From IMG/VR virus record IMGVR_UViG_3300032562_000154, positions 1-26,675 of that record: DNA of 26,675 nucleotides; one strand, written 5' to 3'. The translations under genes were made by a program, and so were the position numbers. Positions 109-11,509 of the stretch are shown in pieces. The stretch comes from a virus. The notes beneath the pieces were generated by a model. The model searched no databases and was not told where the DNA came from. It saw only the letters and a program-made list of their open reading frames with translations. The number at the start of each line of letters is the position of its first letter. The first letter of the stretch is position 1.

Positions 109-140
109 AATAAATCAAACCTCATATCAATAAATCAAAC
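109..140. repeat. 12-bp direct repeat spanning a gene junction
   Basis: AATAAATCAAAC occurs at 109-120 and exactly again at 129-140 (20-bp period). The second copy overlaps the end of the 222-aa gene and the first lies just upstream of the next start. It could be a slippage duplication or a binding site; nothing more can be said. Confidence 0.5.
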
Positions 141-795
141 TGTCAACACGTTTATACTTAATGTTAAACGCATTCATTAATAATTCTACTTCTTTAAGAC
201 ATTCTTCTCTACCACCACCTACCAAGTAAGCACCATTAAACCTCTTTAGTTGTGCGACACTAGCCCAACCAACAGTCATTGGATCGCCATTCATTTCATT
301 AATAGCACCCATAATTAATGATTGTGTTATTGTTCTTTGACTACTAGCAGGAAATTCTAAATCTCTTGTATCAGTTACTCGTTGGACATACATCTCGCGG
401 ATAGTTGCAATGATAGTTGATGTTTCAATTCCGTGATCCATCCAAGACCGCAAATACCCATACCCTTTATCTACAATTTCAAACCTACGCCAGTCAATTG
501 GGCTTTCTGGTTCCTTATAGTAATAATCACCATTTTCATCGTCACCTTCCTCGCCTTCTGTGACTAAAGTCTCGTCCCAAAATTGTTGTATTTGTTGTAT
601 ACTATCACCACTCATCCCTTGGTCTTCGGCATTAACAAAAAATAATACGGGACCTTTTTGCTTTTGTACAAAGTTCATTATTTGAACAAATTTAGGATTT
701 GTCGGAGGCCATGGGTGTCCATTATATTCTGGTTGAACATCAACACAGATAACCGGATGACTTAGTCCTTCATTAATCAACTCCTTTATTTTCAT
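127..795 (-). CDS. Conserved phage protein, possible isochorismatase-like fold, with capsid-targeting-like N-terminus
   Basis: The 222-aa product begins MKIKELINEG, in which I-N-E at residues 7-9 fits the (L/I)xE cleavage motif of the T4 gp21 prohead protease. The remainder has features of the cysteine-hydrolase (isochorismatase/nicotinamidase) fold: a strand ending VDVQ with Asp19, a Lys in VDKGYGYLR (Lys110) and a late Cys in GGGREECL (Cys199). This order, Asp-Lys-Cys, matches the family's catalytic triad, but the spacing is stretched by an acidic insert around residues 79-97, so the assignment is tentative. The ATG lies one base after the TAA of the 393-aa gene (TAATATG) and has no Shine-Dalgarno, so translation by re-initiation is likely. 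Confidence 0.8.
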   Translation of the reverse strand: MKIKELINEGLSHPVICVDVQPEYNGHPWPPTNPKFVQIMNFVQKQKGPVLFFVNAEDQGMSGDSIQQIQQFWDETLVTEGEEGDDENGDYYYKEPESPIDWRRFEIVDKGYGYLRSWMDHGIETSTIIATIREMYVQRVTDTRDLEFPASSQRTITQSLIMGAINEMNGDPMTVGWASVAQLKRFNGAYLVGGGREECLKEVELLMNAFNIKYKRVDSLIY

Positions 796-796
796 A

Positions 797-1978
797 TTAA
801 TGGAATAGTAAGAAACTGTTAATCACATCTCTGCGGTTAGCCGCACGATCACCTGCTCCTGGCTGTACTATAACATGCCATTTGGGATGATCACTTTCTG
901 GAGTATCCAACATTTCATCGTAAGTAATAATATCGTCTACATCTACTTGATATTTTTTAGCTAGTCTTTGTTTGAAATCATCTAATGCTGCTTGGTCTAT
1001 AAACTGTGTACGACCTTTGGCATCTTTAATAGGTTTGCCTTTAGCATCAAGCGCCACTACCGGAGGCTGTGCTCCGCTGGCAACTGCCTGCTTGCTGGCA
1101 GCAAACAATTCTTTTGGAACTGTTATCCCCTGCTTGACAGTGTTGCCTTTAGTTTGATGGAATTCTATCTTTTTCTCTTCTCCACGTTTAGCTCCGCTGC
1201 TGAAATTAATAATAAAATTAGCAGGTTTGTCAGCAGTGGCCACGTCAGCTATCTTAGTATAAGCATAAAACTTTACGTCGGGATTTTTACGTGCTACATC
1301 AAATGCCAAATCTAAATATTCCTTACTGAAGAAATCACCAGCATCGTGCCAACGTACAACTAACGAAATTTCATGTTTATCAGTTTTGCGTTTAATTTGA
1401 TTTATCTCACGATTAACCATATTGTTATAACCTTGGGGATCATTTACCAAAAAATTAAGTGCTTGTGCCGCACCCATTGAACTAGCTGGGAACATTACAT
1501 ATCCGCCTTTTCTAGCATAACAAAACAGTTGACAACTGCCAGCTCCTGGGCAAGTTGTTATCTCTACAAAGTCCCCGTTTGATTCATCTACTATAATACC
1601 ACTCAATGCTGGTAATGTTAAGTCATATACTATTTCGCCTTCAGTGGCGCTTTTACTCATTTTAGCATTGGTACCTAATAGGGTTTTAGGTCTTGACATA
1701 ATTTGTTGTGCTAGGTCATCTAAGTCCCATTTATCTCCTGAGTCATCTTTAGTAATAGCTTTAAGATTACTTCCATGCAACACTGGCGCAAATTTGTCTT
1801 TTTTAGTTTTGCTACCTGATTTTATTCTGTCAGCATAGCCCTGTAACTCGTCACGACTCATACGACGATGAGGAGCATTAAGTCCAATAGCCTCGTCAAC
1901 TTCTTGATCCTCGATATGTAATGGTTTAACTTGAAACCCACCTAATGTGGTTTCGTTTATAAATTCGTATGCTTTCAT
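797..1978 (-). CDS. GP88-like protein with T4-type capsid-targeting-like N-terminus
   Basis: The 393-aa protein starts MKAYEFINET, close to the T4 internal-protein capsid-targeting sequence MKTYQEFIAE|A, with a possible prohead-protease cut after Glu9. The core resembles the phage 'gene product 88' family: a cysteine cluster CPGAGSC...CYA (Cys143, Cys149, Cys153; C-x5-C-x3-C), then RWHDAGDF at 199-206 and FYAYTK near 237-242. The biochemical activity of the GP88 family is unknown to me; the Cys cluster could bind metal or an Fe-S centre. The C-terminus, around residues 366-393, is an Arg/Asp-rich segment ending SFLLFH. The start has a good ribosome site (AGGACC). It lies 11 nt after the 830-aa gene and 1 nt before the 222-aa gene, in one operon. 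Confidence 0.9.
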   Translation of the reverse strand: MKAYEFINETTLGGFQVKPLHIEDQEVDEAIGLNAPHRRMSRDELQGYADRIKSGSKTKKDKFAPVLHGSNLKAITKDDSGDKWDLDDLAQQIMSRPKTLLGTNAKMSKSATEGEIVYDLTLPALSGIIVDESNGDFVEITTCPGAGSCQLFCYARKGGYVMFPASSMGAAQALNFLVNDPQGYNNMVNREINQIKRKTDKHEISLVVRWHDAGDFFSKEYLDLAFDVARKNPDVKFYAYTKIADVATADKPANFIINFSSGAKRGEEKKIEFHQTKGNTVKQGITVPKELFAASKQAVASGAQPPVVALDAKGKPIKDAKGRTQFIDQAALDDFKQRLAKKYQVDVDDIITYDEMLDTPESDHPKWHVIVQPGAGDRAANRRDVINSFLLFH

Positions 1979-1989
1979 AATATTGGTCC

Positions 1990-4482
1990 TTATATTTTTC
2001 CTGTTGTTGGGTCGTTCATTGCTAACATATATTCTTTAAATTTGGCGTTGCGATCTGCCAATCCTGCCATACCAGGATTGATATGTTTGGTAACTTGGCT
2101 AACATTACGGAAATCAGATACATTGGGTTGTACCCGATTTTGCCAGTACCATACTGCTACTTTGGCAGCTATATCAGGACGTTCTACCAACTCTGGATGT
2201 TGCTCTAGTGGCAGATTTAATGCTTCACCTGCTCGTCGATAATTTTCTCTTCCTGTTAATTGTATAAACCCACGACCAGAATATCTATTACCGTCACCTG
2301 GGTTAACGTTACCCAGACGTTTGGCTTTAGAAGGGTTGAAGCTGATGTCATATTTTTTAAAATCACGCTTGCCCCCAAATTCTTTGAGTGTGCTGAAATT
2401 CGCAGTTTCGTGGGCGCACTGAGACATAAACGCGGCTAGTTCTGTGCCCTTTAATCCATAAGCTTCTGCTGTTTTTTGTAGTGTTTTGGCCGCAGGTGCT
2501 TGCGATGTTTGTGGTTGAGCCGCCTGTTGTGTAGTTGTTTGTGGTGCTGTAGATACTGCCGTAGGAGTTGGCGCTCCGAAAGCTAATGCTCCGGCAGTGG
2601 CTGCTCCTGCTAAAGTTGATCGCCATCCTTCTTCTAATTCTTTTTCAAGATCAAATTCTTCTGCCAGATTATATCTGCTGGTATTAGACATGCGATGTAC
2701 TTTGCCATCTGGGCGTAAAACCTGCGGATGTCCTTGGCTGTCTGTATCTAATAAAAATGCGTTGGCTGCTCGTCCTATTGCCCCTGGACGTACATCAACT
2801 GTCAAAGCCATTTTATATCTAGGATCGTTGGCTTCTGCGGCTGTGGGAATATATCCACTGCTTTCTGCTACGTTTTGATTAATTTTGACTAAATCAAATG
2901 TCACTGCTGTACGTCCGTCTATGATATTTTTCAATCTGTAGCCCCAGGTTTGAGCATAGCGTTGAAACAGCGCCGTGTATAAACTGCTTCTGCTGTCTCG
3001 TGCTTCGTTTTTTGCCGCAGTGAATGATATATATTTTGGTTGTGCTTTGGTTTTTAAAAAACGTTGAATAGCACTTAAAACCGTAGCAAATATTTTTTGA
3101 GCATCACCCTCACCTGTGACATTTTGACTATTGTTCCTGTAGAATTCTATAGTGTAGTGGTCTTCGTCCTCTTGATTGAACATGATACTTAATACCGAAC
3201 CATCGGGCAGATAAGTGTAAGCATCGTAGTCTCCAAACTCGCCCTTTTCCCATTTCAATCTATAAGGGCTATCAAAAGACTCGTTCAAGCTGGTAAAAGC
3301 AAATAACTCAGGATGTAGTTTTCCGTATCTACGCATTAGTACACCTGCTCGAGCATTAGCTTCATTTTCCCACTCACTGCCATCTTCACCGGCATCGTCT
3401 GGCATAGACATAACTTCATGTTGTCGCTGATGTACTAATTCATGGGCCAGTGTTCTCAGTATATCCATAATATGTCTATTTCCCACTGCTACTTCTAATT
3501 CGTTAGTCATGCCGTTATATCTACCAAATGTCTTGTTACGTTGACTCCAAGCAGGGTCACGACGTAATCTCAATGATATATCTTTTTCAAGACCTAATTG
3601 TTGTACACAGAACTCTGTAAAATTACGTACCACATCTTCGTCAGACTTACTTTCGGGTATTTCTTCATTGGTAAATTGACAAGTAGTTGGATTGGTTCCA
3701 TCGGGTGTTATGCCAACTTCTTCTATGTAGTCAGTACCATAGCCGTACTTTACAGGTTCCACATCACGTTCTTTTAAACTTAGCTCTTGACTTTTAATCT
3801 TAGCACGTTCCTTAAAGAGTTTTTCTAAGTCCCCTCGATTACGCAACAATTTATATGCGAGATTCTCTGGACCAAATTCACCGTGATTTGCCAATCCGGC
3901 GCTACGGAAATTTTTTAATTTGTCAGCTATCGCATTCATGTGTTCTAGATTTTTAGATTTCACAGCTTCTCGTATACGTTTGCTGAGATCTTTATATTTG
4001 CTCTTAACACTGACATCGTCTATATCAGCTTTGCTGCGTTTAGGTATCTGTTGCCAATCATTTTGTATTAAACTATAAATGCCTTGACTATGATGTTCTT
4101 CGTCACTGGCCTGTACATACAATTCTACAGGAATTCCTTTGATTTTTATATCGTGTTCTTTGTTGTAGATGGATTTTTTGGCATCAACTAGTTCTCTGAA
4201 AATATCATAATTTTCTGATTGGGGAAATTCTACCACTAGGTGTAGATCTATATCGCTATGAGGAGTATAAGAATATGCGGCATTACTTCCCGATACAGTT
4301 ACGTCTTTAATATCTAGATTTTTTACTCCTAAAAATTGTGCGAAATCTTCTGCTATGGTCATTAACTGTTCTTTTATCTCTGGAATTAGATGTTCTCTGC
4401 GATCCCATAATTTTGGGTTCAGCTTGTTATGGAACTTAACAGCATCTGATAGTTTGAAAGATTCTAATTGATATATGTTCAT
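1990..4482 (-). CDS. Multidomain virion/effector candidate: nucleotidyltransferase + HExxH protease + GH19 glycosidase
   Basis: The 830-aa product combines several modules. Residues ~35-125 look like a Pol-beta-type nucleotidyltransferase: GS at 65-66, D-I-D at 77-79, and a possible third carboxylate Glu120 in IPVELYV. Residues ~285-390 contain a zinc-protease motif HELVH (347-351), with WENEA (Glu372/Glu374) able to give the third ligand. Residues ~405-540 are a mixed domain of unknown function, followed by a DPR..AL..DV segment (~550-580). An Ala/Thr/Gln-rich linker (621-665) leads to a GH19 chitinase/lysozyme domain (~667-820) with HET at 691-693, Glu701 and a SGRGFIQLTG motif at 735-744. 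The ATG has no Shine-Dalgarno and sits 6 nt after a late-type element. It is probably a head- or tail-borne enzyme; the domain calls are by motif only. Confidence 0.88.
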   Translation of the reverse strand: MNIYQLESFKLSDAVKFHNKLNPKLWDRREHLIPEIKEQLMTIAEDFAQFLGVKNLDIKDVTVSGSNAAYSYTPHSDIDLHLVVEFPQSENYDIFRELVDAKKSIYNKEHDIKIKGIPVELYVQASDEEHHSQGIYSLIQNDWQQIPKRSKADIDDVSVKSKYKDLSKRIREAVKSKNLEHMNAIADKLKNFRSAGLANHGEFGPENLAYKLLRNRGDLEKLFKERAKIKSQELSLKERDVEPVKYGYGTDYIEEVGITPDGTNPTTCQFTNEEIPESKSDEDVVRNFTEFCVQQLGLEKDISLRLRRDPAWSQRNKTFGRYNGMTNELEVAVGNRHIMDILRTLAHELVHQRQHEVMSMPDDAGEDGSEWENEANARAGVLMRRYGKLHPELFAFTSLNESFDSPYRLKWEKGEFGDYDAYTYLPDGSVLSIMFNQEDEDHYTIEFYRNNSQNVTGEGDAQKIFATVLSAIQRFLKTKAQPKYISFTAAKNEARDSRSSLYTALFQRYAQTWGYRLKNIIDGRTAVTFDLVKINQNVAESSGYIPTAAEANDPRYKMALTVDVRPGAIGRAANAFLLDTDSQGHPQVLRPDGKVHRMSNTSRYNLAEEFDLEKELEEGWRSTLAGAATAGALAFGAPTPTAVSTAPQTTTQQAAQPQTSQAPAAKTLQKTAEAYGLKGTELAAFMSQCAHETANFSTLKEFGGKRDFKKYDISFNPSKAKRLGNVNPGDGNRYSGRGFIQLTGRENYRRAGEALNLPLEQHPELVERPDIAAKVAVWYWQNRVQPNVSDFRNVSQVTKHINPGMAGLADRNAKFKEYMLAMNDPTTGKI

Positions 4483-10759: not shown

Positions 10760-11509
10760 TTATTTCTCCGGAAATAACTGCGGGGGACCTTTTGGTTTAG
10801 GTTTAGAGACTGTAGTTACATTCTCATTGATGTTTACAACATTTACCTGCGTATCAGTAACATTGTTGGTAGTAGGACTGGGATTCGCAAATCCTGCGCC
10901 AAAACCTGACGGACTACTACCAGCTGATGGAGTCGAAAATCCACTTGTTGTCGGTGCTGTTGGGGTGCCTGATCCAAAGGCTCCGGTAGTTGTTGATCCG
11001 AAATTGTTTGTTTGTGAACCAAACCCTCCACTCATACCGGTGTTCATACCAGAATTCATGCCGCCCATACCGGTGTTCATACCAGAATTCATGCCGCCCA
11101 TACCGGTGTTCATACCAGAATTCATGCCGCCCATACCGGTGTTCATACCAGAATTCATGCCGCCCATACTCGGAGGTTGATATGTTGTACCAGGGCCAAG
11201 GTCAATCCCACCTTGTTCAGCACCTGCTAATTTTTCTTTTGTTCGACCAAACGCTGTAATACCTAATATAGCACCAAACGCAATATGTATCATCCCAGCA
11301 CCCTGTAGTGTCAATGGTTGCCACTGTACAAACGGAATAATATGATAGACAGCTTGAGTCATACTCCATAGCATTGGGAATAATATAAAGTCGCAGGCGC
11401 AAATAGCCATGTAGATATACCCCATTAAAGGTCTCCAACGTCGAGTCATCCAATCTTCTTGCGGTTTTTCGTTTGTAGTTTTTATTACATTTCGATGTCG
11501 GTGCGACAT
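10760..11509 (-). CDS. Holin-like membrane protein with tandem Met-Gly-Asn repeat tail
   Basis: The N-terminal ~105 residues of this 249-aa protein resemble the 3TM holin family of gene transfer agents and phages: a basic start, then RRWRPLMGYIYMAI, a proline-bearing hydrophobic stretch (FILFPMLW), W-Q-P-L-T-L and a final helix GAILGITAFGR. The rest is unusual: four exact copies of an 11-residue unit MGGMNSGMNTG (~114-158), then a Gly/Ser/Thr/Pro-rich region and a charged end PKPKGPPQLFPEK. Such a tail is not part of the holin family. The start has a strong AAGGAG. Its place in the lysis cassette supports a membrane-lesion role, but the holin call is by similarity only. Confidence 0.8.
   Translation of the reverse strand: MSHRHRNVIKTTNEKPQEDWMTRRWRPLMGYIYMAICACDFILFPMLWSMTQAVYHIIPFVQWQPLTLQGAGMIHIAFGAILGITAFGRTKEKLAGAEQGGIDLGPGTTYQPPSMGGMNSGMNTGMGGMNSGMNTGMGGMNSGMNTGMGGMNSGMNTGMSGGFGSQTNNFGSTTTGAFGSGTPTAPTTSGFSTPSAGSSPSGFGAGFANPSPTTNNVTDTQVNVVNINENVTTVSKPKPKGPPQLFPEK
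11037..11168 (-). repeat. Four exact 33-bp tandem repeats inside the holin-like gene
   Basis: A 33-bp unit (plus strand begins ccggtgttcatacc and ends gccgcccata) occurs at 11037-11069, 11070-11102, 11103-11135 and 11136-11168 without a mismatch. It encodes the 11-residue unit MGGMNSGMNTG. The identity at silent positions points to recent slippage or recombination expansion. Confidence 0.97.

Follow-up and report, generated by a model that had tools for sequence, protein, structure and literature searches.

Capsid-targeting-like tags on two adjacent proteins and predicted head-protease sites in a neighbouring polyprotein of an uncultured T4-type virus

The stretch of DNA analysed here (the window) is a 26,675-nt fragment of an uncultured T4-type virus of bacteria. 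Two open reading frames on its minus strand adjoin, one base apart, and their products of 393 and 222 aa start with MKAYEFINE↓T and MKIKELINE↓G (arrows mark predicted cuts). A sequence-only reading had proposed that both starts are T4-like capsid-targeting sequences (CTS) ending in the [LI]xE site of a gp21-type head protease. The starts lie where that reading placed them, and both proteins carry a short N-terminal tag ending in [LI]xE. The two products are probably internal head proteins of the T4 kind, and an 830-aa neighbour probably belongs to the same system as a polyprotein cut at [LIV]xE. The 9-residue tag would bring each precursor into the prohead core, where a gp21-type head protease would remove it after [LI]xE and leave the mature proteins in the head, probably to be delivered with the DNA; cuts at the internal [LIV]xE sites would split the polyprotein into its modules. 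Packaging, cleavage and injection, like any effect on the host, are inferred here from sequence, and a role against host defences would be hypothetical.

The GP88-like nature of the 393-aa protein was confirmed by a Pfam match to PF17338 (6.6e-33; 114.9 bits versus a gathering score of 24.4). It contains an invariant CX5CX3C motif (C143, C149, C153), and a Foldseek search with its model returned no significant match and no solved relative by fold. For the 222-aa protein, a Pfam search found no match and a PDB sequence search with its profile gave one weak match (E 0.14). Its AF2 model had a mean pLDDT of 87.6 with residues 1-7 below 50, and the tag was of low confidence in the models of both proteins. 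The cysteine-hydrolase fold suggested earlier for this protein held in part: D19, K110 and C199 were invariant in 36 homologues and correspond to the Asp, Lys and Cys of isochorismatase-like hydrolases, but the best relevant Foldseek match, 8rkz_B, was not significant (E 0.07). The fold is probably that of isochorismatase-like cysteine hydrolases. In the alignment of these homologues, which reaches down to about 31% identity, 34 rows have a residue at position 9, and 32 of these retain Glu9. In bacterial genomes the family was found on two short contigs only, which gave no host clue. Adjacency of a GP88-type and a 222-type gene was rare (4/97 GP88 genes by a motif test), and the T4 late-promoter sequence TATAAATA showed no excess in the window.

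The 830-aa protein had been missed in the earlier reading, as had the wider modular system of the relatives. It joins a nucleotidyltransferase, a zincin-like part with the motif HELVHQ, a DUF6934-like part, an SGYIPT module and a GH19 hydrolase. We predict from its sequence that it is a polyprotein with internal sites of the tag kind (Table 1). The module after residue 401 occurs as a separate, tagged protein in two relatives (L036 and L013), and the last site precedes a Gly/Ala-rich hydrophobic segment followed by the GH19 module. The protein's own start, MNIYQLES, resembles the tag and has no clear [LIV]xE site. Elsewhere in the window (10760-11509), a 249-aa protein contains a tandem MGGMNSGMNTG repeat and faces an open frame on the opposite strand.

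Table 1 Features of the locus, with predicted cuts shown by arrows; positions refer to the window unless a relative is named
Feature	Position	Strand	Evidence
393-aa tagged protein, GP88 family (PF17338)	797..1978	-	ORF, MKAYEFINETTLGG
222-aa tagged protein, probably isochorismatase-like (cysteine-hydrolase) fold	127..795	-	ORF, MKIKELINEGLSHP
N-terminal tag MKAYEFINE (393-aa protein), with the predicted cut behind Glu9	1952..1978	-	Tag enrichment and junction test
N-terminal tag MKIKELINE (222-aa protein), with the predicted cut behind Glu9	769..795	-	Glu9 conservation; internal site DLAE↓ in G025
830-aa predicted polyprotein	1990..4482	-	ORF, domain matches, homologue comparison
Predicted site IEE↓V after residue 255	3718..3726	-	Homologues have LDE↓V, LNE↓V, IEE↓V there
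Predicted site LNE↓S after residue 401	3280..3288	-	Module tagged in L036: MRAQDFIKE↓AFDKPYKLLRWEKGD
Predicted site VAE↓S after residue 540	2863..2871	-	Module tagged in G017: MRLQELLE↓CSGYIP
Predicted site LEE↓G after residue 618	2629..2637	-	L040 xEE↓GW[KR]; L013 DE↓GWR, same order
GH19 behind site and segment	L219:3858-4493; L237:6261-6890; window 1990-2628		

Relatives of both window proteins were taken from IMG/VR, three long ones being fetched in tiles, and their genes were called with a simple script. Neither a gp21 nor a capsid gene was found in the window fragment. A gp21-type protease (Peptidase_S77) was present in 26 of 50 relative records, namely in 20/38 records of relatives, most of the longest included, and in 6/12 records chosen through a DNA linker described below. 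In three of them (G004, G025 and G017) gp21 lies upstream of the genes for scaffold-like and capsid proteins; the capsid protein of G004 shares 65% identity with its counterpart in Methylophilales phage Melnitz. When placed by analogy with FLTE↓A of T4 gp23, the capsid propeptide ends of distinct relatives read LNE↓T, LKE↓N, LSE↓S, LRE↓S, LDE↓A or ISE↓A. Scaffold-like proteins of the relatives contained 5.2 to 7.1 [LIV]xE per 100 residues compared with 1.48 overall. The proposed gp21-type site at the tag end is thus backed by gp21 and by matching capsid and scaffold sites, both in relatives.

The same data bear on whether cleavage would take place in the infected cell instead of the prohead, with the tag as a general processing signal and the cut made by another protease, for instance the host's or the zincin-like domain inside the polyproteins. 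The HELVHQ part inside the 830-aa protein would suit such a role, and release by embedded peptidases has been proposed for polyvalent proteins (PMC5512222). This explanation is nevertheless unlikely: gp21 is present in relatives, the same [LI]xE stands at the capsid propeptide end, the scaffold-like proteins are enriched in [LIV]xE, and the likeness between the tag and the T4 CTS extends along the full length of the tag. Judged from the sequences, the tag is still most likely a capsid-targeting sequence with a site for the head protease.

A protease site at the end of the tag predicts that the same site precedes the tagged domains wherever they are fused internally. In a junction test, the sequences after Glu9 of tagged proteins were aligned to all proteins and the internal placements were kept. 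Among 89 distinct junctions, 87% had Glu at the aligned P1 and 76% had [LIV]xE, which was seen in 19 of the 23 module families with internal placements. False cuts at 15, 20, 30 and 40 gave 0% [LIV]xE and untagged proteins 5% (68/89 versus 13/251; Fisher p 4e-39). Untagged M[KR] proteins reached 31%, and some of these controls probably carry weaker tags. Both window proteins provide examples: the mature start in MKIKELINE↓GLSHPVICVDVQPEY aligns with the internal EQDLAE↓GLSHPVICVDVQPEY of G025, in which an acetyltransferase-like part precedes the homologous module, and MKAYEFINE↓TTLGGFQVKP aligns with the internal SKLNE↓KTLGGFQVKP of L031.

Upstream of the junctions only P3 and P1 were conserved. 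Shared ancestry alone is therefore insufficient as an explanation, since it would have kept the neighbours of P3 and P1 too. This also weighs against a reading of the tag as some other N-terminal address, for instance to a phage-made compartment or the membrane, with the Glu site as a by-product of the ancestry shared by fused and separate genes. Some proteins with no clear site retain the first six residues, as such an address would have it; given that the rest of the upstream sequence differs at the junctions, we consider this reading quite improbable.

In the uncultured relatives, the tight pattern M[KR]..[EDQ][FLIY][LIVFM].E matched 123 of 769 M[KR] gene starts versus 4 of 1740 M[KR] inside genes, some of the latter four likely being miscalled starts (Fisher p = 1e-60, a value inflated by related sequences). 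The 123 tagged proteins formed 49 groups that showed no detectable similarity to one another beyond the tag; the tag consensus was M-R/K-A/I-x-E/D-F/I/L-I/L-T/N-E, and up to about ten tight-tag genes occurred in one relative genome. An [LIV]xE with Glu at position 9 was present in 20% of 589 non-redundant M[KR] proteins versus a background of 1.4%, in a set biased by its choice through the two window proteins; loci for which the DNA linker was the sole search key had the tag just as often (63/326 M[KR] genes). As a control, IPII and IPIII, which both read MKTYQEFIAE↓A in the T4 record, were the only tight-tag genes among those called in two T4 stretches. Position, motif and spread over unrelated proteins thus bear out the T4-like capsid-targeting tag. 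Not all start tags would be cut, because several in the relatives resemble the tag and lack a clear [LIV]xE site. That Lys/Glu-rich N-termini resemble the T4 tag by chance or composition is highly improbable: M[KR] starts are frequent, as are N-termini rich in Glu, but the tag is about 70 times rarer at internal Met-Lys/Arg, and the junction test and the conservation of Glu in diverged homologues also contradict it.

The nearby cultured relatives Melnitz and S-SRM01 had few or no tags in the parts read, which weighs against the reading as internal head proteins, as do the start tags with no clear site and the window fragment's lack of a gp21 or capsid gene. In S-SRM01 (L194, 4894-6737), two adjacent cyanophage genes have nearly equal tag-like starts, MKTFQEFQESAAIARGAL and MKTFQQFQESAAIARGAL. 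Cytidyltransferase-like genes of two cultured freshwater cyanophages start with MKLFNQFFKE↓A (S-CRM01, L199, 13692-14549) and MKRFLQFLSE↓A (DSL-LC02, L200, 23899-24978). In many proteins, tags and internal sites are followed by recurrent small basic Cys/His modules (e.g. L033:12522-12722 and L005:9804-10004), one with the motif NFADGK.PGRKG...HWCANM and another with KWSQKYK.SINC...QRAHC; these are possibly DNA-binding cargo.

Export signals were found behind several of the sites. A pattern search yielded 15 twin-arginine candidates, one of them plainly spurious; each of the 14 remaining Tat-type candidates had an [LIVM]xE at most 16 residues upstream, compared with 20% in controls. Pfam TAT_signal scored above the cut-off at residue 462 of an 849-aa protein and directly behind the tag in L219 (tag, Tat signal and GH19), just at the cut-off at residue 197 of a 773-aa GP88 protein, and slightly below it in others. 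A mid-protein Tat signal is meaningful only with a cut just upstream of it. GH19 peptidoglycan hydrolases were also observed immediately after the combination of a head-protease-type site with a segment that is either Tat-type or hydrophobic and rich in Gly/Ala (Table 1). Such a wall enzyme may have to lose its upstream part before it can be exported.

In many relatives the modules are joined by QGVAE↓G, with 53 occurrences of QGVAE versus 0.5 expected and up to eight GVAE sites in one protein. This linker is conserved as DNA: CAAGGTGTGGCGGAA was present in 33 of the 53 QGVAE sites, its Ala codon was GCG in 83% versus a usage of 9%, and the 17-mer CAAGGTGTGGCGGAAGG occurred in at least 120 IMG/VR stretches. 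Of 156 distinct linker contexts, 154 had QGVAEG in the longest of their six open frames, and beyond about 20 bases the flanks were without conservation. The modules between linker sites had a median length of 76 aa and formed 118 groups. In-frame CAAGGTGTGGCGGAAGG is repeated between unrelated polyprotein modules with its rare codons conserved (L204-L323, e.g. L258, L212 and L271). A 542-aa linker polyprotein had no relative among 50,697 cultured-phage records. The window contains no linker with up to three mismatches; the linker is therefore part of the relatives' system and not of the window's.

Of 42 multi-member inner families, 21 had more than one neighbour context. Loose clustering gave 47 one-module insertions or deletions between equal neighbours, a count that leaned on one overgrown family and was rejected; strict clustering gave zero such events between otherwise equal neighbours, so module exchange at the linker is not proven. 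We tentatively consider a cassette system, a possibility to which we give rather less than even weight, in which the element of about 20 nt (consensus AGCAAGGTGTGGCGGAAGGC) would be both a module-exchange border and a QGVAE↓G site, and the Tat signals would be exposed by the head protease. A module could then join a capsid-tagged polyprotein and be freed in the head, and those modules that carry Tat-type signals would, once these are exposed, be directed into the periplasm of the host infected next.

The lack of shared sequence makes injected phage proteins difficult to spot. With tag and site together, candidate packaged proteins of large uncultured T4-type phages can be listed by a rule read from sequence; the functions of many of them are unknown. 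The results also suggest that a bacterial DNA virus processes modular polyproteins with its capsid protease. A search of mostly open-access literature turned up no description of head-protease sites that link the modules of phage polyproteins, and no work on the CTS together with metagenomes.

Among known systems, the closest likeness is to the T4 proteins IPI, IPII, IPIII and Alt, whose CTS is the same short N-terminal M-K/R...E-F-I-x-E tag with an [LI]xE site. The T4 CTS and internal proteins, like the system described here, combine a gp21-type protease in the phage group with diverse, unrelated cargo (PMC3012670, PMC5694885). The tag has 9 residues here and 10 in T4, a genome here holds at most about ten tight-tag genes, and the same sites also join polyprotein modules. 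The system is wider and more modular than that of T4, and the protein cargo that these viruses seem to pack and release is large and shuffled. Polyvalent proteins, for which packaging and injection have been proposed, are likewise long, multidomain phage proteins with enzymatic domains (Iyer et al. 2017, PMC5512222), a description that also fits the 830-aa protein. Their proposed release is by embedded peptidases, whereas the junctions here match the head-protease motif and a capsid tag. The injected DarB of P1 likewise has an N-terminal packaging signal, but another one, of 30 residues, and modular sites of the present kind are not described for the Dar proteins (PMC9024508). In phiKZ and SPN3US the head protease cuts the propeptides of many head proteins, some at several sites (PMC5694885); their ejection proteins have long propeptides with A/S-x-E motifs and are separate proteins, not polyproteins of swapped modules.
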